Source: Nocardia ninae NBRC 108245
Lineage (GTDB): Bacteria > Actinomycetota > Actinomycetes > Mycobacteriales > Mycobacteriaceae
DNA length: 54,294 nt
Assembly (NCBI RefSeq): GCF_007990755.1
Contig: NZ_BJXA01000063.1
Span: 1-54,294, forward strand
Reading direction: 5' to 3'
Positions 26,926-38,013 of the stretch are shown in pieces. The position numbers and the translations under genes were made by a program. Position 1 is the first letter of the stretch. Each line of letters begins with the position of its first letter. The notes under the pieces were generated by a model. The model worked only from the letters and a program-made list of their open reading frames with translations, was not told where the DNA came from and made no database searches.

Positions 26926-26998
26926 GCCCTCGTAGCTCAGGGGATAGAGCGTCTGCCTCCGGAGCAGAAGGCCGCAGGTTCGAATCCTGCCGAGGGCA
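26926..26998 (+). tRNA. tRNA-Arg (anticodon CCG)
   Basis: A 73-nt cloverleaf folds fully. The acceptor stem is GCCCTCG with CGAGGGC, the D arm GCTC/GAGC, the anticodon stem TCTGC/GCAGA around CTCCGGA (anticodon CCG at 26959-26961, reading CGG), and the T arm GCAGG-TTCGAAT-CCTGC. The discriminator is A. CC but not CCA follows (CCG), so the final A must be added. The 3' half is repeated at 28023-28051. Confidence 0.95.
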
Positions 26999-27006
26999 CC
27001 GCATGA

Positions 27007-27043: not shown

Positions 27044-27115
27044 CTCGTTCCACGGCGTCAGCTCGCGTCGATGACACGCGATGGCACAACCTCACCCGGA
27101 GGATGCGGTCGATCC

Positions 27116-27946
27116 TCAGGCCCGAACGTAGCCTTGTGCTACATCGGCAAGATTCCACCACGAGACATGGTGGGTATCAGAGGATTCCAGCGACCACCGT
27201 TCGGACAGCCGATCGAAGAACGCGTCGTCGCCGGTCTTGCCACCCTTCGGCTCACCGATGTAGATCAACCGCCGACCTCCCCGCGCCTCGAACGCAGCCA
27301 AGGCCCGAGACGACATCGGATCTCCCCAGCCGGGCGGCCAGCACAGGAACAACACGCAGTCCCCGTTCAGCTCTGCCTCGAACTCGCCCAACCCGCCGAC
27401 CGGATGCCACACGTCCAGCTGACCCGCAGCGCCCGGGAACGACACATTCTCAGTGCTGTTCGGCGGCTCCACATCGAACGCGGCCGCATCCGCACCCCGC
27501 GCGGCAAGCTGACCGGCCCAGTACCCGCGCCCGGCACCCAGCTCGAGTACCCGTCGTCCGCCGCTGAACTCCGCCAGCCACCCGATCGATTCCGGCGACG
27601 GCACCGCGTACGCGTATGCCGCTTGCAGAATCGTCTGAGCGAAGGCCAGTCGTGCACTGCCGTTCTGCCTGCCGCCATTGATAACTCGACGCCCACCATC
27701 CTCGCCAACCGACGGCGCAACGATGTCCCAATACGGATTCCCCGACTCCGACACACCGCCGGTCATGAAGTGCACCAACCGCAGATCGAACGCGGCATCA
27801 GCCGCAGCATCGCCGGTCCCCAGCAACATCGGCGCCGTGTCCAGGTACTCCGCAACCTTCGGATACTCCAGCCGGAGCCGCTGCTCGTCCTCCAGCAGTG
27901 CCGCCAGTTCTGTGCGTCGCTCATTCGTCAGCATGAGCCCAGTCAT
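27116..27946 (-). CDS. class I SAM-dependent methyltransferase, substrate unknown
   Basis: A 276-residue protein with the SAM-binding motif RVLELGAGRGYWAGQLAARG in the middle, an acidic strand after it (AAFDVEPPN) and the downstream strand CVLFLCWPPGW. The NPPY-like position is replaced by CWPPGW, so an amine-type active site cannot be assumed. The N-terminal 110 residues (LTNERRTELAALLEDEQRLRLEYPKV) are helical and unfamiliar. It is the only gene between tRNA-Arg and the copy of its 3' end, so it looks like cargo of an inserted element. The ATG at 27946 was chosen; one at 27934 is possible. Confidence 0.8.
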   Translation of the reverse strand: MTGLMLTNERRTELAALLEDEQRLRLEYPKVAEYLDTAPMLLGTGDAAADAAFDLRLVHFMTGGVSESGNPYWDIVAPSVGEDGGRRVINGGRQNGSARLAFAQTILQAAYAYAVPSPESIGWLAEFSGGRRVLELGAGRGYWAGQLAARGADAAAFDVEPPNSTENVSFPGAAGQLDVWHPVGGLGEFEAELNGDCVLFLCWPPGWGDPMSSRALAAFEARGGRRLIYIGEPKGGKTGDDAFFDRLSERWSLESSDTHHVSWWNLADVAQGYVRA

Positions 27947-28022
27947 GTACTCGATTCTCGCTGGCACACACCACTTATGCGTGCTGTTGCCGAATTCCGC
28001 TATCGAGAATCAAGATCGACGT

Positions 28023-28051
28023 CCGCAGGCTCAAATCCTGCCGAGGGCACC
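28023..28051 (+). repeat. degenerate copy of the tRNA-Arg 3' end (att-like)
   Basis: These 29 bases match tRNA-Arg positions 26972-27000 at 27 of 29 places, with the last 18 (AATCCTGCCGAGGGCACC) identical. Upstream bases do not resemble the rest of the tRNA, so it is not a second gene. A terminator like the one behind the real tRNA follows at once. This is the pattern left by site-specific integration at a tRNA 3' end. Confidence 0.8.
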
Positions 28052-28054
28052 GGG

Positions 28055-28091
28055 AAATGGTCCCGAGCAGTTGTATTGGTCGGGGCCATTT
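28055..28091. terminator. terminator-like hairpin behind the tRNA remnant
   Basis: AAATGGTCCCGA pairs with TCGGGGCCATTT (12 bp with one G-U pair) across a 13-base loop and is followed on the plus strand by TTAAG. It parallels the tRNA-Arg terminator at 27007-27043 in place and sequence. It lies downstream of the minus-strand reductase gene and can end that transcript. Confidence 0.65.
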
Positions 28092-28158
28092 TAAGTCCGG
28101 GAGGGGATCCGGCAGTTGGTGTGCAGGTTTCTGTTCGTCGGCGGCACAGCAACTCTGG

Positions 28159-29253
28159 TTATGGGTGACTGATTGCGGAGGTGAGGTAGTTCAGGTTGAT
28201 TTCGGGGGCGGGTGGGGGTGTGCCGAGGGCGGCGCGGACTCGGGAGGTGTCGTAGCGGCGGTGGTGGCGGGTGTAGCCGGCGAAGGCGGTTTGGGCTTCG
28301 AGGGCGGCTTCTATCGGGGATTGGTCGGCGGGGGGTCGGGAGACCAGGTGGAGGTCGAACGGGTAGGTGCGTTCGAAGGTGGTCAGCAGGTCGGTGACCA
28401 AGGTATTTCGTTGGTGGACAATGTGGTACGTGTCGACCCCGCCGGACGGCTCCCGCTGGGCGAGGCGGGCCATCGTGGCGGCGGCGTAGTCGACGGGGAC
28501 GAGGTTCAATGATGCGGTGGTGGCGCCCGGGAACCGGACCGGGAGTCGCTGCGCGGGTGGGTGATCGGACATGCCGAACCTGGACATGCCGCTCTCCAAG
28601 GCCTCGGCGACGAGACTGAGGGTGTGCAGCGGGAGTTCGGCGTGGCGGGGCACATCGGTGACCAGGATGCTCGGACGGAACACCACGACCGGCCTGGCCT
28701 GCTGTGCCGCCCAGGCGCGGACCATGGCTTCGGCCTCGTATTTGGTTCGCTCGTAATGGTTTTCGAAGCCGCAGGTGTCGTCGAGCAGTTCTTCCGGCAT
28801 CGTCCCGTGCCGTCTGGCTCCCGCGACGGCGATGCTGCTGACGTGATAGAGCAGGGGGGATCGCACGCCTGCCGCCGCCAATTCCAGGACGTGGCGGGTG
28901 CCGGTGACATTGGTCCGGCGTAATTGGTCGAGCGCTGCGCCGATCGTGGTGTCCCCTGCACAGTGCCAGATCACGTCCAGCTCGTCGGCCAGCTCCTGGA
29001 AACGCTGCTCCGGCAACCCGAATCGGGGTTCGACCAGGTCCGCTCGCACCACCCGGATTCGCTCGGCGAGGTGGTCGAGGAGGTCGCGACCGGCACCGGT
29101 CAACCGCAGGAACCCGCCGATCCGGTTCAGCACGGATTCCGGTTCGGCGCGCGCGAGCACGGTCAGTGCGGCGTGGTCCCGCAACAACTCCCGCATGAGG
29201 TGCACACCGAGAAACCCGGTGGCACCGGTGACGGCGATCGTCGGTGTGCCCAT
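28159..29253 (-). CDS. thioester reductase-type SDR (NAD_binding_4-like)
   Basis: A 364-residue extended short-chain dehydrogenase. The nucleotide motif GATGFLG is at 10-16, followed by VIWHCAGDT, the catalytic SS at 139-140 and YERTK (Tyr167, Lys171). It resembles the reductase domains that release acyl chains from carrier proteins as aldehydes or alcohols in NRPS/PKS enzymes and carboxylate reductases. There is no adenylation or carrier domain. It begins 4 bases after the PKS stop, with GGGAG in its upstream region, so it very likely releases the PKS product. The ATG at 29253 begins the conserved TIAVTGATGFLG. Confidence 0.88.
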   Translation of the reverse strand: MGTPTIAVTGATGFLGVHLMRELLRDHAALTVLARAEPESVLNRIGGFLRLTGAGRDLLDHLAERIRVVRADLVEPRFGLPEQRFQELADELDVIWHCAGDTTIGAALDQLRRTNVTGTRHVLELAAAGVRSPLLYHVSSIAVAGARRHGTMPEELLDDTCGFENHYERTKYEAEAMVRAWAAQQARPVVVFRPSILVTDVPRHAELPLHTLSLVAEALESGMSRFGMSDHPPAQRLPVRFPGATTASLNLVPVDYAAATMARLAQREPSGGVDTYHIVHQRNTLVTDLLTTFERTYPFDLHLVSRPPADQSPIEAALEAQTAFAGYTRHHRRYDTSRVRAALGTPPPAPEINLNYLTSAISHP

Positions 29254-29257
29254 CTGC

Positions 29258-32200
29258 TCAGCTCCCGGTCCGGCTCGGTTTCGCCGCGGCGAGTACGACG
29301 CGGCTGAGTTGGGCGAGCGAACCGCCCCGTGCGACATCCATGACCGACAGCTCGCACCCCAGTTGGTGCCGGATCGCCGCAAGCAGCTCGGCGGCCATCA
29401 GTGAGTCCAGCCCGAGCTGATCCAGCTGCCGGTGCGGATCGACCCGGTCCGGCGTGGTCTGCATGACGTGCGCGACCAGCCCGATCATGGCCTGCTGGAC
29501 CAGCTCCTGAGCTTCCTCCGGCGTGGCAGCCGCCAGCTGGCGGAGGAATTCGCTCTTGCCCTGTCCCATCCCGTGGATGGCCGGCGGTCGCACGCGCGCG
29601 AATCGAGGCGTCAACAGGCTGGGCAGCATGGTCGTCATCCGATCCCAGTCGATTCTGGCGACGGACACGCCGTTGCGTTCGGAACCGAGCAGTTGCTCGA
29701 GACCCGTCATCGCCTCCTCGGCGGAGATCGCCAAAATCCCGAATCCCGACAACCGGTCGGCGAGACCGGTGCGAGCGACATGGCCGACATCACCGATGGC
29801 GCCCCACGCAACGGCTTGCCCGGTCAGACCCTTGCTCAGCCGATGCCTCGCGAAGGCCTCCACAAACAGGTTGCCCGCAACGTAATTCGCCTGCCCGAGC
29901 TGCCCGGCCATGGCAGCGACGGACGAGAACAGTACGAAGAAGTCGAGCGAGCGTTCCGCGACGAGTTCGGCCAAGGTCAGCGCACCTTGCATCTTGGGAG
30001 CCAACGCGGTGTCGAATCGGGTGTCGTCGAGTTCGGCGAGCGGCGCGTCGTCGAGCCGCATCGCGGCATGCACCACCCCACGTACCGGGTGTCCCGTCGC
30101 ATCGATGGTCGCGAATACCGCGCGCATGGCGTCCAGGTCGGTGACATCGGCGGCGTAGGCGGTGACTGTGACCCCGCCGGTGGCGAGCTCGTCGATGAGC
30201 TTCGCCGCTTCCGGCGCCGCCGACCCGCTGCGACTCGTCAGCACCACCTGCCGCGCACCGCGCCCGGCCAGCCAGCGGGCCGTCGCCGCACCGAGGCCAC
30301 TCGTTCCGCCGGTGACCAGATAGGTCGCGTCCGGATCGAGCCGGACCGGCACCGGCATGCGTTCGACGGGGACCTCAGCATCGAATGTCACGACCACCTT
30401 GCCGATGTGCCGCGAATGCTGCAGCAGCCGGAAGGCTTCGCCGATCCGCGCCGCGGGGTACACCGTGTGCGGCAGCGGCGGGTATGCCTGCGACGAGATC
30501 TGTTCGGCAACGGTCCGGAACTGGACCTGGCCGAGAACCGGGTGGTCGCTGTCCATGGTGCTCAGGTCGGCGCAGAAGACGCTGATGTTGCGCTGCAAGG
30601 CTCGCAGCAACAGCGGACTGTTCTCGATGACGTCCCGCTTGCCCAGTTCCACGAACCGGCCGTGCGGGCGCAACAGTTCGAGGCTGCGGTGCAGGGCCTC
30701 TCCCGCAAGGGAATTGAGCACTACATCCACCCCACGCCCGCCGGTGGCAGCCTCGACCTCGGCGACGAAAGCCATACTGCGGGAATCGAAGACGTGCTGG
30801 ACGCCCAGCGACCGCAGGAACTCACGTTTGATCGCCGACCCGGCGGTGGCGATGACCGTCACGCCGAGTTGCTCGGCGTACCGGACGGCGGCCAACCCGA
30901 CGCCACCCGCCCCGCCGTGCACCAGCAGCACCTCACCCGGCACCAGCCTGGCCAGCGTCTCCAAGGCGTAGTACACGGTGGACGCGGCCACCGGGAGCGT
31001 GGCGGCCCCGGTGAAGGACAGGCCGTCAGGGATCCGGCCGACGTTCTCGGCCGCAGTCACCACCTGGGCCGCCAGCGCGGCGGGTGCGAGACCGTACACC
31101 CGGTCCCCCGGCCGCAGGTCGCGCACCTGCGCACCGACCTCGGTAATCACACCGGCGCACTCGAATCCGAGTCCTTGCTCGGCGAAGGTGCCATCGATCA
31201 CCTCGGGCGGCAGCATGCCGACCGCCTGTAGCACGTCGCGGTAGTTGAGTGCCGCGGCCCGGACCGCAATGACCACCTCCTGAGGTCCGGCCTGCTTCGG
31301 AACTGAGGGCTGCCAAGAGAATTCACACGACAGGCCGGGATTGTGCAGTGCGAGCCGATAGGGCTGCGGGTTGTCCGCGGCAACCAAAATCAGCTCGGGT
31401 GCGGCCGCGACCACCCGAGGCACGAATCTGCCCGCGGGGGTGAGCACTACCTCGTCCTCGTCGGTGGGGGTGAGCAGTTCGCGGGCCAGCCGGTCGGCGG
31501 TATCGATGAGCTGCGGGCCGCGCGCGAGGGACACTCGGGTGAGGCCGAGCGCGGGCTGCTCGTTGGCCAGGGACCGGGCGGCGCCCCACAGTGCCGCATC
31601 TTCGGGAACCTCTGCCCGCTCCGGCGCGGGCATCGCGCCGGTCGGCCGGGTGACCAGGCAGCACCGGGTCTGCACGGTGGATGGCAGGTCCCCGAGCCCC
31701 GCGGCGACGGCGCGCAGAACAGCGACGCGCCGCAGCGTCCGATGGGTCGTCGCGGCCGGGCCGGGTTGCGCGTCCGAAGTCGCGGCGGAAAGCAGGAAAA
31801 CCACCCGCACCGAATCGTTCTCGGCGACGGCAGGCAACCATCCATCGATCAGCTCGCTCGCCACGATCGCGCGCACCGAGCTGCCGCCCGCCTCGTGCAA
31901 CCGCTCGGCCAGCGATGCGGCGAACCCGAGCTCCGTGTCGTCCTCGGCGAGCAGGATCCACCGGCTACCCAGCGGCGCCGGTGGCAGCGCCGCGCCGAGC
32001 GCTGTCTCGGCAGCCCTGGTGGCGAGGATGACCGAGGACGAGCTGCGCAGCGGTTCCTGTTCGCTGCCCAGCTGCCGCACGTCGGCGAAGCCGCAGCGAC
32101 GCAGCAACACTGGCCACTGCTCGCGCGACAGCAGCGGCGAATGCGTCCGCAATGTGGTGTCGGTGAAACTCCAGAAACTGTCCAGCACGCCGAACGGCAG

Positions 32201-35200
32201 CGCCAAGGGCTGTGGGTCGTGCCGTTCGCTGGCCAGCAGCAGCCCACCCGCCGCGAGCAGGCGGCCGAGCGACCGCATCGAGCACGCCAGGTCGGCGGCC
32301 GTGTGCAGCGCGTTCGACGCGACGATGAGGTCGAAAGCGCAGTCCGAGAAGCCGTGCGCGGCCAGCTCCTCGTCGAGATCGAGTTGCTGGTACTCGACGA
32401 AGTCATAGGCCGCGAAGCGCTTCTGTGCCTTGGTGAAGAAGGACGTGCTCGCGTCGGTGAACAGGTAGTGCGTTCGCTCCGGTGGCAGCAACGGCAGCAG
32501 AGCCGCGGTGGTGGCGCCGGTCCCGGCGCCGACCTCGAGTACCCGCAGCGGACGATCCTCGGGCCAGCCCAGCACGATCTCGCTCAGCACCGCCCGCAGT
32601 ATCTCGTTGTGGTACCGAGTATCCGGGTTGACGTCGTAGTACTGCTCCAGCAACGACCCGCCGTCGAGGACGATTTCTTGCATCGGGTCCGCGCGACCGC
32701 ACAAGAATTCCGGAAGTCGCCGCGCGGCATAGGTACCGAGTGCCGCCGCGGGCGCGCACTCCGGGACCTCCGCCAGCCAACAGCGCAGCAGCGGCTCCGG
32801 TGCGGCGGCACCCGTCCAGCGCCAGCGCTTTTCGCCCATCGGCTCCGCCAGACCGTACGCACAGGCCATCGACAGCAGCAGGTCGAACAGCCCCGCGTAT
32901 TTCGGCAGCATCCCCGCTGCCAGCGCGTCTTCTTCAGCGAATATCGCAGGCGCGGGCAGTAACTGGGTCAGCGCGGCGACGGCGTGATGAGTGAGGGTTT
33001 CGGTTGTCCTCATCAGGTTCGTGGGTGTATCCAGCAGCGTCTCACCGGATTGCAGCCGTTGCACTGTGGCCACCGCGAGCTCGCCTGCCGCCGGCATCGG
33101 CGTACTCGTCATGGGTGCTTCTTCGTACGGCGCTGCCCGCAGCACACACACGTTCTGGTCCACCGGATCGCCGAGCGCCGCATCGAACCGGCGCAGCCAC
33201 ACGTCCCGCAGCTCCATCGCGACGGCGCCGTCCACGTCGGTGATCGTGATGTCCCAGCGGACATAGTCCTGGTGCCTGGCGCGCGAGCGGACCAGGATGC
33301 ACCCGGTGGCCGGCGGCTGGAACCAGCGATGGGTGGTACCCACGGCGTGCGGCAGGAAGACGTGGCGAGCGTCGGCGAGCAGCGGCGCGCCCGCTTGCAG
33401 CGCACCATCCAGCAGTGCCGGGTGCACCTCGTAGCCGGACTGCGCCGCGTCGAGGCGGTAAGCGGCCAGCACGTGGTCTCGGCCGACTGTCAGCTCTTCC
33501 AGCACTTGGAACGCCGGACCGTAATCGAGACCGACGGCTGCGGTAGCGGCGTAATGCTCTGCGCCACTGACCTTTTCGTTCAGGGACGCGCGCTCGCCGG
33601 CGATGTCGATCGGTGCGGGTTGCGGATGCCACAGGCGCCGGACCCGGCCGGTGGCATTGGCCTGCCAGTCCGACATGCCCTCGACTCGGCTGGCGATCCG
33701 GACGGCGCCACTGGTTTCCGACAGCGACACCTGCAGGCTGACCGGCGGGCCATCGTCGTCCTGGGCGAGCACCAATGCGTGGGTGATCTGCAGATCGGTG
33801 ACCTCGACCGCCGCGTCGTGCACGCGGCGGCCCGCGGCCAGGGCCATCTCCAGGAAGGCGCTCGCGGGCATGACGATGGCGCCACCGACCCGATGGTCGG
33901 TCAGCCAGGGCACCCTGACGGGTTCGACGACATCGCGCCAGGTCGGTTCGAGCACGGTGAGACGTTCGCCGAGCAGCGGATGGTCGATCGTGCCGTCGCC
34001 GCCGTTGCGGAAACTCGATTCCGGGCTGCCCTGCCAATGTCGTTCGCGCTGCCAGGGATAGCGCGGCAGGTCCACCACCAGGCCGGTATCGGGGAAGTAG
34101 CGCGCCGCGTCGAGCGCAGCGCCGGCCTCCAGCAACCGCTCTACGGTGGCGTCGACCGACCGCGCACCCTCGGCGGATCGAAGCAGGGTGGGCACCACGG
34201 CGGTGGGTGTCTCGGCGGCCGCGGTCAGCCGCCGCAGATAGCCGCGCAGTACCGGATGCGGGCCGATCTCGACGAAAATGTCGAATCCCCGCGTGATCAG
34301 ATCCTCGATGGCCGGGGCGAACAGCACGGGTTCGCGTACGTTGCGCCACCAGTATTCGGCGCCGAGTTCGGTGCCGGGAATTTCGGTTCCCGTCACCGTG
34401 GAGATCAGCGGGATCCGCGTTGCGCCGGGGGCGAGGTCGGCCAGTCCGGCGCGCACCGTGTCCTGCAGGTCGTCCATGGCCTTGCTGTGGAACGGGTAAT
34501 CCAATTCGAGTTCGCGGAAGAAGATCTCGCGGGCGGCAAGGCGTGTGCCCAGTTCGGCGACCGCAGCACTGTCACCGCTGACCGTGACGTCCTTGCGAGA
34601 GTTGATGCCGGCGAGCTCCACGCCAGGCAGCCCGTCCAACTCGTGCGTGATCTCCGCCGCCGACATGCCGACCGCGGCCATCCGCCCGCGCCCCGCCGTC
34701 CTGGACTGGGCGGCACTGCGTTCGGCGATGACCAGGCACGCTGCGTCCAGATCGAGCGCGCCCGCCAGATAAGCCGCCGCGACCTCACCCACACTGTGAC
34801 CCACCACGGCCCCGGGCTCGACGCCCTTGTCGCGCAGCATTTCGGCGAGGCCGAGCTGCACGGCGAACAACGCGGGCTGAGCGACCTCGGTCGCGGACAT
34901 CCTGGACCGGTCGAGCGGCGCGGACAGTTCGTCGGCGACGGACCAGCCGAGGCGCGGCCGCAGCCGGGCGTCCACCGCCGCGATGACCGCACCGAACACC
35001 GGGTCGGCCAGCAGGTCGGCCGCCATGCCTGCCCACTGGGAACCATTGCCGGAGAAGACGAAAGCGACCTGGCCACGCGCGGTCTCGGACGCACACTGGT
35101 TGATGTCCACCGTGCCCTCGGCGATCGCGCGCAGCCGCGCCGCGGCGGACGGGCCGTCGGCAGCGAGCACCGCTACCCGATCCCAATGGCGGGTGCGCCG

Positions 35201-36670
35201 CCGGGTGAGGGTGTAGCAGGCGTCGTAGAACTGTTCCGCCGTCGTGTCGGCCAGTTGCGCGCCGAGCAGCCGGGCCGCTTCGGTGACCGCGTCCGCCGAG
35301 CGCGCCGAGACCACGATGGGCAGCGGCCGATCCGTCGGCCGCGCGGTCGGCGGGCGCTGCGGCGCTTCGGCGAGCACCGCGTGCGCGTTCGCGCCACCGA
35401 AGCCGAAGGAGTTGACGCCGACCACGGCGGGTCGGGCACCGTCCAGCGGCGTGTTCTCGCGGACCGGAGCCAGGCGCAGTCCGTCGAAATCGATCGCCGG
35501 ATTGAGCGGCGTGGCATGCAGCGACGCCGGGATCACTCGATGGCGCAGCACCAGAATGGCTTTCAGCAGTCCGGCCATGCCCGAGGCCGCTTCCAGGTGT
35601 CCGAGGTTGGTCTTCACCGAACCGATCGGCAGAGCAGGCCCGGCAGACCTGGGCATGCCGAGCGCCCGACCGAGCGCGGCGCACTCGACCGGATCGCCCG
35701 CCGGTGTGCCGGTGCCGTGCGCCTCGACGTAGCCGACCTGGTGTGGCTCGACCCCGGCCATGGCGTACACCTTGCGCAGCAAGGCTTCCTGCGCGGTGGC
35801 GCTGGGCAGCGCGAGGCCCGGGGTGCGACCGTCGCAGTTGACCCCGGTACCCCGAATCACCGCGTGCACTCGGTCGCCGTCGGCGAGGGCGTCGGCCAAC
35901 CGTTTCAAGACCACGAGGCCGCCGCCCTCGGCGCGCACATACCCGTCGGCATCGGCCGAGAACGCCCGGCACCGGCCGGTCGGCGACAGCATCGAGGCCT
36001 GCGCGAAGCCGACGGTGGTGAACGGGCTGAGCAGGATGCTCATGCCGCCCGCGAGCATGACCCGCCCCTCACCGAACCGAAGGGCTTGGCAGGCCTGGTG
36101 CAGCGCCACCATCGCCGAGGAACACGCCGTGTCGATGGCCATGCTCGGCCCACGGAAGTCGAAGAAGTGCGAGATACGGTTCGCCGCGATCGACAGCGCG
36201 AGCCCGGAATTGGTGTAGGCGTCGATGTTTCGCCAGTCGTTCTGCTGGGTGGCGTAGCCGATCTCCGAAATACCTATGAAGACACCGGTATCCGAGCCGG
36301 ACAGCTCGCGCATATCGACAGCGGCGTCGTCGAGCGCCTCCATCGCCAGCTCCAGCAGGATCCGCTGCTGCGGGTCCATCCGGCCGGCTTCGCGCGGTGA
36401 GATGCCGAAGAACCGCGCGTCGAACGCCGCGATATCCACCCCGGTCAGCATGCCCGCCGCAGCGGTGTAGCTCTTGCCCGGCCTGCGACCACCGGGCGTG
36501 ACGATCCGGCCTGCGTCGAACCGATCTGCCGGTATCTCGGTGACGACATCGCGTCCGTCGGACAACATTGCCCACAATCCGTCCAGGTCGGCGATGCCGC
36601 CCGGCAGTCGCAGACCCACGCCGACGACCGCGATGTCCGCACCGTGCTGGGACGCGCCGAACCCCGACAT
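29258..36670 (-). CDS. highly reducing type I polyketide synthase with C-methyltransferase
   Basis: A single 2470-residue module. KS (about 10-435) has Cys183 in DTACSSA, His318 in EAHGTGT and His358 in NLGHLE. AT (535-850) has Ser626 in GHSVGE and a YPFH motif at 725-728, suggesting malonyl-CoA. DH (890-1165) has His926 in HxxxGxxxxP and Asp1088. The C-methyltransferase (1220-1555) has SAM motif VLEVGAGTGATT at 1377. A structural pseudo-KR spans about 1560-1760. ER (1780-2095) has HGGAGGVGLAAV at 1918. KR (2115-2300) has GGTSGLG, Lys2226 and Tyr2263. ACP carries Ser2423 in LGLDSL. Every domain looks active. There is no loading module or thioesterase, so iterative use and release by the adjoining reductase are inferred. 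GGAGAAGGAG precedes the ATG. Confidence 0.95.
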   Translation of the reverse strand: MSGFGASQHGADIAVVGVGLRLPGGIADLDGLWAMLSDGRDVVTEIPADRFDAGRIVTPGGRRPGKSYTAAAGMLTGVDIAAFDARFFGISPREAGRMDPQQRILLELAMEALDDAAVDMRELSGSDTGVFIGISEIGYATQQNDWRNIDAYTNSGLALSIAANRISHFFDFRGPSMAIDTACSSAMVALHQACQALRFGEGRVMLAGGMSILLSPFTTVGFAQASMLSPTGRCRAFSADADGYVRAEGGGLVVLKRLADALADGDRVHAVIRGTGVNCDGRTPGLALPSATAQEALLRKVYAMAGVEPHQVGYVEAHGTGTPAGDPVECAALGRALGMPRSAGPALPIGSVKTNLGHLEAASGMAGLLKAILVLRHRVIPASLHATPLNPAIDFDGLRLAPVRENTPLDGARPAVVGVNSFGFGGANAHAVLAEAPQRPPTARPTDRPLPIVVSARSADAVTEAARLLGAQLADTTAEQFYDACYTLTRRRTRHWDRVAVLAADGPSAAARLRAIAEGTVDINQCASETARGQVAFVFSGNGSQWAGMAADLLADPVFGAVIAAVDARLRPRLGWSVADELSAPLDRSRMSATEVAQPALFAVQLGLAEMLRDKGVEPGAVVGHSVGEVAAAYLAGALDLDAACLVIAERSAAQSRTAGRGRMAAVGMSAAEITHELDGLPGVELAGINSRKDVTVSGDSAAVAELGTRLAAREIFFRELELDYPFHSKAMDDLQDTVRAGLADLAPGATRIPLISTVTGTEIPGTELGAEYWWRNVREPVLFAPAIEDLITRGFDIFVEIGPHPVLRGYLRRLTAAAETPTAVVPTLLRSAEGARSVDATVERLLEAGAALDAARYFPDTGLVVDLPRYPWQRERHWQGSPESSFRNGGDGTIDHPLLGERLTVLEPTWRDVVEPVRVPWLTDHRVGGAIVMPASAFLEMALAAGRRVHDAAVEVTDLQITHALVLAQDDDGPPVSLQVSLSETSGAVRIASRVEGMSDWQANATGRVRRLWHPQPAPIDIAGERASLNEKVSGAEHYAATAAVGLDYGPAFQVLEELTVGRDHVLAAYRLDAAQSGYEVHPALLDGALQAGAPLLADARHVFLPHAVGTTHRWFQPPATGCILVRSRARHQDYVRWDITITDVDGAVAMELRDVWLRRFDAALGDPVDQNVCVLRAAPYEEAPMTSTPMPAAGELAVATVQRLQSGETLLDTPTNLMRTTETLTHHAVAALTQLLPAPAIFAEEDALAAGMLPKYAGLFDLLLSMACAYGLAEPMGEKRWRWTGAAAPEPLLRCWLAEVPECAPAAALGTYAARRLPEFLCGRADPMQEIVLDGGSLLEQYYDVNPDTRYHNEILRAVLSEIVLGWPEDRPLRVLEVGAGTGATTAALLPLLPPERTHYLFTDASTSFFTKAQKRFAAYDFVEYQQLDLDEELAAHGFSDCAFDLIVASNALHTAADLACSMRSLGRLLAAGGLLLASERHDPQPLALPFGVLDSFWSFTDTTLRTHSPLLSREQWPVLLRRCGFADVRQLGSEQEPLRSSSSVILATRAAETALGAALPPAPLGSRWILLAEDDTELGFAASLAERLHEAGGSSVRAIVASELIDGWLPAVAENDSVRVVFLLSAATSDAQPGPAATTHRTLRRVAVLRAVAAGLGDLPSTVQTRCCLVTRPTGAMPAPERAEVPEDAALWGAARSLANEQPALGLTRVSLARGPQLIDTADRLARELLTPTDEDEVVLTPAGRFVPRVVAAAPELILVAADNPQPYRLALHNPGLSCEFSWQPSVPKQAGPQEVVIAVRAAALNYRDVLQAVGMLPPEVIDGTFAEQGLGFECAGVITEVGAQVRDLRPGDRVYGLAPAALAAQVVTAAENVGRIPDGLSFTGAATLPVAASTVYYALETLARLVPGEVLLVHGGAGGVGLAAVRYAEQLGVTVIATAGSAIKREFLRSLGVQHVFDSRSMAFVAEVEAATGGRGVDVVLNSLAGEALHRSLELLRPHGRFVELGKRDVIENSPLLLRALQRNISVFCADLSTMDSDHPVLGQVQFRTVAEQISSQAYPPLPHTVYPAARIGEAFRLLQHSRHIGKVVVTFDAEVPVERMPVPVRLDPDATYLVTGGTSGLGAATARWLAGRGARQVVLTSRSGSAAPEAAKLIDELATGGVTVTAYAADVTDLDAMRAVFATIDATGHPVRGVVHAAMRLDDAPLAELDDTRFDTALAPKMQGALTLAELVAERSLDFFVLFSSVAAMAGQLGQANYVAGNLFVEAFARHRLSKGLTGQAVAWGAIGDVGHVARTGLADRLSGFGILAISAEEAMTGLEQLLGSERNGVSVARIDWDRMTTMLPSLLTPRFARVRPPAIHGMGQGKSEFLRQLAAATPEEAQELVQQAMIGLVAHVMQTTPDRVDPHRQLDQLGLDSLMAAELLAAIRHQLGCELSVMDVARGGSLAQLSRVVLAAAKPSRTGS

Positions 36671-37200
36671 ACGTTCTCCTTCTCCGGCCCCCGAAAGGCG
36701 GGGCAGTGGTCATCTCGACGATCGGTGGCGATCCCTGAACCGCCGGCACATGGACAGCGACGGGTTCAACGGGTCGAATCTGCATCTGACAACAAGCCGG
36801 GCACGGTGGCAGCCACGATCGGCGCCACTGCGCGGGCGAATCCGAATACCGCGAGGCCGTTGATCTGTGTCATCGATTGCTGCCGACACCTCGGCAGCAG
36901 TCGTCACGTGCGATATCGAACGAACGGAGCGGTGCGGGATCGATGGCGATCGAGCCGCGTTGCCCCCGGTGGCCTCGCTTCAGCTCTGGACGAGCTCGAC
37001 CGCGAATCTACCGATCGGAATCATCGGGCGCAAGCCCCCGGATTCGGCAATTACCCAGTGCTGCAACCCATTTCGTCGCACGTCAGATAAGGCACCCGCA
37101 TACTGCTATTCGTTGCCGAAGCACGCTCGGATGGGAACCGATAACGGCCCGAAGCTGAGCAATCGACCGACTCACCGGGTAGCCGGTTACGCCGCGGCGA
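36671..37200 (-). promoter_or_regulatory. 530-bp noncoding region upstream of the PKS
   Basis: No frame here has a ribosome site or a recognisable protein, so this should hold the PKS promoter and any operators. The one strong element is a 9-bp perfect hairpin or palindrome, TGCTGCCGA (36878-36886) and TCGGCAGCA (36891-36899), about 210 bases before the PKS start. It could be a regulator site or the terminator of the upstream protease gene. No clear -35/-10 pair was found. Confidence 0.4.
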
Positions 37201-38013
37201 TCAGCTCTGCCGCTGCTGCCGCGCATACCACCACAGCAGGATTGCCGTGCTGGTGAACGGGATGACGCCGAATGCCAAGCCGATGACTGCCATGTCGGGG
37301 TCGTGAAGGTCTATGTAGTCCCATTTGCCGGCGAGGAACTGTGTGGTCACTTGGAATATGGTGTGAAATCCTATGCAGGCCCAGAGGTTTCCGGTGGTGG
37401 CGCGCAGTGCGCCCTGCACAGCGGAGAATGCGAAGAAGAACAGGGCTCGGTCGAGGGAGCCTGCCGCGCCGATCAAAACTCCCCATGCGGTGAACAGTGC
37501 TGCTTGGCCGAGGACGGTGGCGGCGGTGGGCCAGCGTTCGCGGAGGTTGGCGAAGAAATATCCGCGGAAGATGAGTTCCTCGGGAAAAGCCTCGTACAGC
37601 AGTACCAGTGCGAGCAGTGCGAGGATCGCCGACAAGGTCTGCGGTACCGGCGCACGCACGGTGAGTTCGGCCCAGCCGAGCCAGATCATCACGGCCGCAG
37701 ACAAAAGGGCGGGAATACCCCAGCATGCGGCACCGAAAAGGAAAGGGCGCCAACCTTGTCCGATCGACGACAAGCCCAGCCCGGACCACGGCCGACGATC
37801 GAGGAACCGGCGCGCCGCATAGACCAACGGCACCGTACCCAGCGTCGCACCGACCGCAGCCGCCACATGACGACCTCGGCTGTATTCCTCGCCGAACACC
37901 ATGTCCGCCCCGCGATACAGCACCAGCCACCAGACCGTCACCGCGACGAAAACTACGATCGACCTGACCACAAACGCAGGCCGCCCGTCCTCGGAGCTCG
38001 CGAAAAACGCCAC
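37201..38013 (-). CDS. CPBP family intramembrane metalloprotease
   Basis: A 270-residue protein with about eight membrane helices. It carries the CPBP (Abi/Rce1-like) motifs: FPEELIFRGY with Glu145-Glu146 and Arg150, the FTAWGVLIG-type second motif and the metal-ligand His217 in GFHTIF. Family members cleave C-terminal segments of membrane or prenylated substrates or act in bacteriocin self-protection. It lies upstream of the PKS on the same strand across 530 bp, so a link to the product is possible but unsupported. Confidence 0.88.
   Translation of the reverse strand: MAFFASSEDGRPAFVVRSIVVFVAVTVWWLVLYRGADMVFGEEYSRGRHVAAAVGATLGTVPLVYAARRFLDRRPWSGLGLSSIGQGWRPFLFGAACWGIPALLSAAVMIWLGWAELTVRAPVPQTLSAILALLALVLLYEAFPEELIFRGYFFANLRERWPTAATVLGQAALFTAWGVLIGAAGSLDRALFFFAFSAVQGALRATTGNLWACIGFHTIFQVTTQFLAGKWDYIDLHDPDMAVIGLAFGVIPFTSTAILLWWYARQQRQS

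Follow-up and report, generated by a model that had tools for sequence, protein, structure and literature searches.

What can be made by a single-module polyketide synthase (PKS) and a small reductase encoded directly behind it, when the synthase has a layout best known from fungi and its host is a relative of the mycobacteria? The question is raised by a stretch of 54,294 nucleotides, hereafter the window, which represents contig 63 of the 9.7-Mb genome of Nocardia ninae NBRC 108245. The reading that we favor, with a probability of about 0.65 as judged from sequence, is that of a self-contained pathway in which an iterative, highly reducing synthase would methylate its growing chain with S-adenosylmethionine (SAM) and be off-loaded reductively to yield a methyl-branched aldehyde or alcohol. 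The pair is best read as a Nocardia form of a type of system already known from bacteria, the monomodular highly reducing synthases with differing release enzymes. Among the matches listed in the open-licence literature (subscription papers were outside the scope) no characterised actinobacterial single-module synthase with a C-methyltransferase and an adjacent reductase was found, and this variant is uncharacterised in those matches.

The synthase contains, in this order, ketosynthase (KS), acyltransferase (AT), dehydratase (DH), C-methyltransferase (cMT), structural pseudo-ketoreductase (psiKR), enoyl reductase (ER), ketoreductase (KR) and acyl carrier protein (ACP) domains (Table 1). Pfam assignments and a residue check bear out the statement of a preliminary description of this DNA that the active sites examined are in place, the psiKR half being recognised by position; in the cMT the His/Glu pair (H1456/E1482) and the SAM motif at residue 1378 are both intact. 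Since only 11 residues precede the KS and 12 follow the ACP, there is no room for docking domains, and on this ground partner modules docking to the protein were rejected as candidates. The protein is thus a lone KS-AT-DH-(MT)-ER-KR-ACP module devoid of loading or docking parts, as are the bacterial monomodular highly reducing synthases of the SgaA type; partners acting in trans may be encoded elsewhere.

The reductase gene begins with an ATG at 29253, which leaves a gap of 4 bases after the stop of the PKS gene, as first described. The same pair is found in two other genomes, as the preliminary description had proposed to look for. Nocardia suismassiliense (NZ_LT985361) matches the flanks of the window at 95–97% of bases (90% for one end piece of 641 bases) and carries both genes, with amino acid identities of 95% for the PKS and 94% for the reductase; the latter was compared over 331 residues, because the 3′ end of the N. 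suismassiliense gene is interrupted by a join of N's in the assembly (locus L068, 18726–19883, where the sequence departs after residue 331 as a matter of assembly). A second Nocardia genome (G067) has both genes at the same place, with identities of 75% and 69%. The dN/dS values of PKS and reductase are respectively 0.13 and 0.22 against N. suismassiliense, and 0.27 and 0.40 against G067 (0.12 to 0.53 for individual domains), indicating that both genes are under purifying selection. Recurrence in two further genomes, together with dN/dS values of 0.13–0.40, indicates that the pairing is more than chance. Scans for promoters and terminators gave nothing above chance.

The check suggested at the outset, a KS phylogeny, places the synthase apart from the modular assembly-line PKSs. 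In a quick tree of 51 rows (near-duplicates L022, L023, L025–L028, L067, L075–L077 and L079 left out) the synthase of the window belongs to a clade of 12 single-module synthases with a Shimodaira-Hasegawa-like approximate likelihood ratio (SH-aLRT) support of 98, and the modular KSs of its own genome, taken from the fetched stretches rather than from all 61 PF00109 matches, lie outside it; a clade of 15, also with support of 98, adds sequences from Pseudomonas, Caballeronia and Paraburkholderia. In an equally quick full-length tree of 23 rows, from which two split Streptomyces genes and near-duplicates were left out, an actinobacterial clade of 11 rows (support 100) is sister to the synthases of these three genera, for a total of 14 rows (support 100). 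Both trees group the window's synthase with monomodular synthases, among which SgaA is represented by stand-ins.

A plausible course of events can be described as follows. YPFHS is a type of AT motif with a malonyl-like third position, and the AT would load malonyl units. One KS would extend the chain repeatedly, as suggested by an iterative sister pathway and by the absence of docking parts. The KR, DH and ER would take each unit to full reduction or to a programmed intermediate level; the cMT, whose active sites are present, would add SAM-derived methyls at chosen rounds. Finally the reductase, a member of the fold family expected for this step, would use NADPH to cut the acyl thioester off the ACP as an aldehyde, which a second reduction would convert to the alcohol. 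The product would be methyl-branched, mostly saturated, and probably lipid-like, because relatives of the synthase adjoin MMPL transporters and a PapA-type acyltransferase. The reduced, C-methylated aldehyde or alcohol proposed in the preliminary description agrees with the stand-alone module, the sister arrangement and the thioester-reductase superfamily of the second protein, while iteration, product and action on the ACP remain predictions.

Table 1. Coordinates of the features of the window discussed in the text.
Feature	Position	Strand	Basis
Single-module highly reducing type I PKS, KS-AT-DH-cMT-psiKR-ER-KR-ACP, 2470 aa	29258..36670	-	Pfam and residue check
KS, region residues 9-440 (Pfam 12-386); C183, H318, H358	35351..36646	-	Pfam, residues, tree
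AT, residues 537-838; GHSVGE, YPFHS; S626/H728	34157..35062	-	Pfam, residues
DH, residues 897-1164; H926, D1088	33179..33982	-	Pfam, residues
cMT, residues 1245-1539 aligning with CurJ cMT (Pfam 1378-1478)	32054..32938	-	Pfam, alignment
Probable structural (pseudo) KR half, residues ~1600-1780	31331..31873	-	Position only; no Pfam assignment
ER, residues 1795-2094	30389..31288	-	Pfam
KR, residues 2115-2293; LDD; S2250/Y2263	29792..30328	-	Pfam, residues
ACP, residues 2395-2458; S2423	29297..29488	-	Pfam, residues
Stand-alone NAD_binding_4 / thioester-reductase-type protein, 364 aa	28159..29253	-	Pfam, TIGRFAM, alignment
Stretch present in the window, absent from G041 and G129: phage-like open reading frame, reductase, PKS and intergenic DNA	27050..37190		Genome comparison
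Phage-like open reading frame, phrog_19090, E 4.3e-24, family of unknown function, between tRNA and repeat	27116..27967	-	Phage family match
tRNA-Arg(CCG) bordering the variable stretch	26926..27000	+	tRNA scan
Second copy of tRNA-Arg 3′ end, 89% over 35 nt to 26967-27001	28018..28052	+	Repeat search

Whether the two genes are the whole pathway can be addressed by comparison with genomes in which they are missing. Homology to the window breaks at 27045 and restarts at 37190 in one pair-less Nocardia genome (G041, with ~1.06 kb between), and breaks at 27050 and restarts at 37230 in another (G129, with ~2.1 kb between). As the difference at this place is limited to the PKS and reductase genes, some intergenic DNA and a single phage-like open reading frame, this is the inserted content, and the earlier claim of a two-gene pathway finds local support; in a third genome (G142) the break is wider, and a CAAX-protease-like gene is also missing. 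The latter gene (37201–37971), upstream of the pair, was rejected as a pathway member on account of its 55–68% identical relatives in G041 and G129, and the phage-like frame is not thought to be part of the pathway either. Alternatively, the pair could be one station of a larger pathway, in which the chain passes to an acyltransferase, glycosyltransferase or aminotransferase encoded elsewhere and the product of the reductase is an intermediate. Relatives of the synthase do lie beside MMPL transporters (L050, L061, L094), in one case (L061) with a PapA-type acyltransferase, a glycosyltransferase and a DegT aminotransferase, and a Deinococcus locus (L081) combines a reductase with an aminotransferase; the inserted stretch, however, holds nothing besides the pair and the phage-like frame, and its immediate neighbors occur also in genomes that lack the pair. 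Overall we regard this alternative as unlikely, though deserving of attention. As previously noted, no phosphopantetheinyl transferase adjoins the pair; five matches to the ACPS family, the weakest of them barely above the cut-off, are found elsewhere in the genome.

The edge of the inserted stretch is marked by a tRNA-Arg gene. Its 3′ end is duplicated at a distance of 1.05 kb, around the phage-like frame (two matches versus 0 in 100 shuffles), and G129 has at this place its own second copy of the 3′ end with a different phage-like gene, so that the tRNA looks like an integration site or hotspot. No base-composition sign of recent transfer was found, the GC content ranging from 0.63 to 0.73 over the stretch and from 0.66 to 0.71 in the flanks.

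Iteration is suggested by the sister group. According to PMC12134224, SgaAB of Pseudomonas fluorescens MYb115 consists of a monomodular iterative PKS and a serine palmitoyltransferase-type α-oxoamine synthase (AOS), and produces C24–C28 sphinganines. Like SgaA, the synthase of the window is monomodular and lies in a two-gene cluster, and the synthases sister to its clade have the SgaAB gene content: those of Pseudomonas, Caballeronia and Paraburkholderia have a class I/II aminotransferase adjoining or one gene away. The locus is not itself an SgaAB pathway, as no pyridoxal phosphate (PLP) enzyme adjoins the PKS, its neighbor being the NAD_binding_4 reductase. On plasmids of the same three genera (L056, L058, L080), SgaAB-like synthase and aminotransferase genes are accompanied by LTA-synthase-type genes and by capsule genes; two of these loci also have a UDP-3-O-acyl-GlcNAc deacetylase, and all look like plasmid-borne sphingolipid-like loci. 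Extension could also be non-iterative, with an acyl starter lengthened once or twice and methylated before the reductase releases it. For this a single module with a full reductive loop would be enough, and a single Pks12 module is reported to make 2-methyl lipids in an engineered setting (PMC11574752); the sister synthases, however, show the gene arrangement of an iterative pathway (PMC12134224), and profile scans of the neighbors found no acyl-CoA ligase or acyl-ACP supplier beside the pair. We consider non-iterative extension improbable.

The second gene product belongs to the thioester reductase fold family: its Pfam score is higher for NAD_binding_4 (163.5 bits) than for Epimerase (72.3 bits), and the TGxTGFxG and YxxxK motifs are invariant in an alignment of 10 rows. 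Its best solved relative is the terminal thioester reductase of MxaA (PDB 4u7w, 97.9 bits), which we take to release an alcohol from its synthase and which, unlike the protein of the window, is not stand-alone but fused. The relatives of the reductase are found near synthases. A search of 150 genomes gave 11 Nocardia hits, every one of them no more than 5 kb away from a type I synthase. The same holds for 9 of 10 relatives at named loci (the exception is in a Bdellovibrionaceae) and for 2 of 3 in plasmid-bearing organisms (the exception, in Granulicella, adjoins an adenylating enzyme). These neighborhoods favor an involvement of the reductase in off-loading iterative synthases. They also bear on the idea that the neighbor is an SDR-type reductase that acts on the carbon skeleton, with release occurring by hydrolysis. 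In its favor, the TIGR01746 score lies below the cut-off, matches to the epimerase and 3beta-HSD families exist, though weaker than that to NAD_binding_4, and other family members do use thioesterases; considering the margin over Epimerase, the MxaA relative and the recurrent adjacency to synthases, we find little to recommend this idea.

Streptomyces loci (L021–L028) encode reductases 46–49% identical to that of the window over ~358 residues, beside synthases with KSs 33–36% identical to the window's that fall outside its group in the tree; in our reading these synthases, with KS-AT-KR and a second KS, are PUFA-like. In Nocardia (L073–L077) a cMT-less synthase of ~2230 aa is accompanied by a reductase 45% identical to that of the window, and by AMP-binding-like, aldehyde-dehydrogenase-like, aldo-keto reductase and P450 genes (families were scanned for the L073 synthase and the L074 neighbors).

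The term fungal-like, used in the preliminary description, holds for the domain order, which with psiKR placed by position is that of fungal highly reducing PKSs such as LovB, but not for the domains themselves. Against solved structures the KS scores 405 bits with CurL, 404 with PikA1, 385 with Pks13, 377 with MAS and 356 with LovB (for 7zma the 604 bits are the sum over two stretches, which we interpret as two KS domains); the cMT scores 163 with CurJ, 115 with DisA and 83 with LovB; and the whole protein scores 950.9 with MAS, the top solved structure, versus 665 with LovB. Acquisition of a true fungal-type synthase from a eukaryote, for which the identical domain order would speak, is rejected as highly improbable in view of these scores and of the bacterial kin found, with the qualification that the KS margin is modest and the trees contain no fungal sequences. 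Mas-type synthases are not known to contain a cMT and derive their methyl branches from methylmalonyl-CoA. The synthase of the window resembles the Mas/Pks2-type synthases of methyl-branched lipids in being single-module and fully reducing, but its cMT and its score with the Pks2 model NF041183 (1107.4 versus a cut-off of 2400) led us to reject Mas/Pks5-type membership.

What varies among the relatives of the synthase is the release partner. A NAD_binding_4 reductase adjoins the synthase downstream in the window, N. suismassiliense, G067, Nonomuraea and G119, and upstream in G108 and G341; the synthase of G103 neighbors a protein of 419 aa whose match to an acyltransferase family falls below the threshold. 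The PKS tree needs at least 4 changes of partner, scored as reductase or other. In approximately unbiased (AU) tests, conducted without Granulicella, a single clade was rejected for the six adjacent reductases (p = 1.3e-6) and for their synthases (p = 1.4e-8), as it was for the synthases of the window, G067, G108 and G341 (p = 0.006); the reductase tree comprised 20 rows, with one Streptomyces-type sequence (L027) not caught by the filter. A wider interpretation, which we hold tentatively at somewhat less than even odds, is that of a bacterial family of plug-in synthases, each a single highly reducing and C-methylating protein, among which the release enzyme was exchanged again and again (a reductase from at least two branches, a thioesterase, a hydrolase, a PLP enzyme), with the Nocardia reductive form leading to methyl-branched aldehydes or alcohols with SAM-derived methyls, a route in Mycobacteriales besides that from methylmalonyl-CoA (Mas). 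On a plasmid of Deinococcus sp. KNUC1210 (L081, 5086–19317) a single-module synthase occurs with a phosphopantetheinyl transferase, a condensation protein, a SagB-type protein, a thioester reductase and a class III aminotransferase, which looks like a system that frees the chain of an iterative synthase as an aldehyde and converts it to an amine.

The state of the cMT differs between the actinobacterial and the other members compared. All 18 actinobacterial rows retain both the His and the Glu of the catalytic pair; each of the 4 other rows (Caballeronia, Paraburkholderia, Pseudomonas, Deinococcus) has a substitution at one or both positions, along with changes in the SAM motif. The synthase of the window thus differs from the stand-in kin of SgaAB. 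The third place of the AT motif is F in 14 of the 18 actinobacterial rows.

A number of observations weigh against the favored interpretation of an iterative, methylating synthase with reductive release. The reductase scores 148.6 bits with TIGR01746, below the cut-off of 213.35. Other members of the clade are accompanied by a hydrolase (G132) or a thioesterase (a second copy in G108, and Streptomyces cattleyicolor), and no release enzyme was found among the neighbors scanned in Streptomyces BHT-5-2; moreover, the reductases of the window, G067, G108 and G341 as one clade are not rejected by the AU test (p = 0.145). The motif CACHS, with C rather than F at the third place, occurs in 4 of the 18 actinobacterial cMT rows. 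YASHS is a methylmalonyl-like AT motif, and it is present in a cMT-less synthase beside such a reductase (L078), but another cMT-less synthase (L073) has HAFHS, so that the AT motif does not strictly track the cMT and is no more than suggestive of malonyl use. The losses called in the four non-actinobacterial rows are less certain than the intact residues, as the cMT alignment is weak there. In SgaAB release is by an AOS that condenses the chain with serine (PMC12134224), where the window has a reductase, and the kin of SgaA are recognised here by gene content. As to the origin of the pair, G067 has both genes but no tRNA repeat, and the repeat need not mark their route of arrival. Finally, a strict cMT search (E 1e-45) matched only one other genome besides the own one among 396 of the phylum, and the family appears sparse outside Nocardia at this threshold.

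Within Nocardia the layout is not unusual, contrary to what was first stated. The cMT query (E 1e-15) matches 89 of 148 genomes, in 29 of which the match lies on an open frame of 2200–2950 codons, and all seven domains were seen in 13 of the 15 Nocardia genomes with scanned loci. These 15 were picked as good hits rather than at random, and the single domain missing in each of the other two may reflect gene call or threshold (genes in fetched loci were called with a codon-usage script, with approximate start positions). The single-module cMT layout, as far as such matches tell, is common in Nocardia. The genome of N. ninae itself has two further KS-AT-DH-cMT-ER-KR-ACP-TE synthases of ~2820–2840 aa with a fused thioesterase (L071, 5850–14315 on contig 22, and L072, 4978–13506 on contig 2), each followed by a Trp_halogenase/FAD-type flavoprotein and, in one case, by an AMP-binding enzyme too; open frames as long as these are common in the genus. 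Another group of single-module cMT synthases (L064, L066, L100, in G115, G070 and G088) is preceded by a small protein resembling squalene-hopene cyclase; behind the synthase lies a hydrolase in L064 and likewise in L097 (G146). Outside the genus, a single place covers at least 80% of the PKS in 12 plasmid records, including some from Streptomyces, Nonomuraea, Caballeronia, Paraburkholderia and Deinococcus. On the plasmids of Streptomyces NBC_01334 (L050, 11965–19514) and KN37 (L052, 11965–19555) the synthase appears as two overlapping frames, with different break points, in the AT-DH linker and within the cMT.

The locus is less strange than first held, since its layout is common in Nocardia, and more informative, since its family shows repeated exchange of release enzymes. 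If our interpretation is correct, no more than two genes are needed to make a methyl-branched aldehyde or alcohol, and the family would provide matched natural examples of one synthase scaffold with different release enzymes. The intact cMT pair of the actinobacterial members and the incomplete pair of the others predict branched versus straight chains, which can be tested by mass spectrometry. A SAM-based source of methyl-branched lipids would thereby be added in relatives of the mycobacteria.

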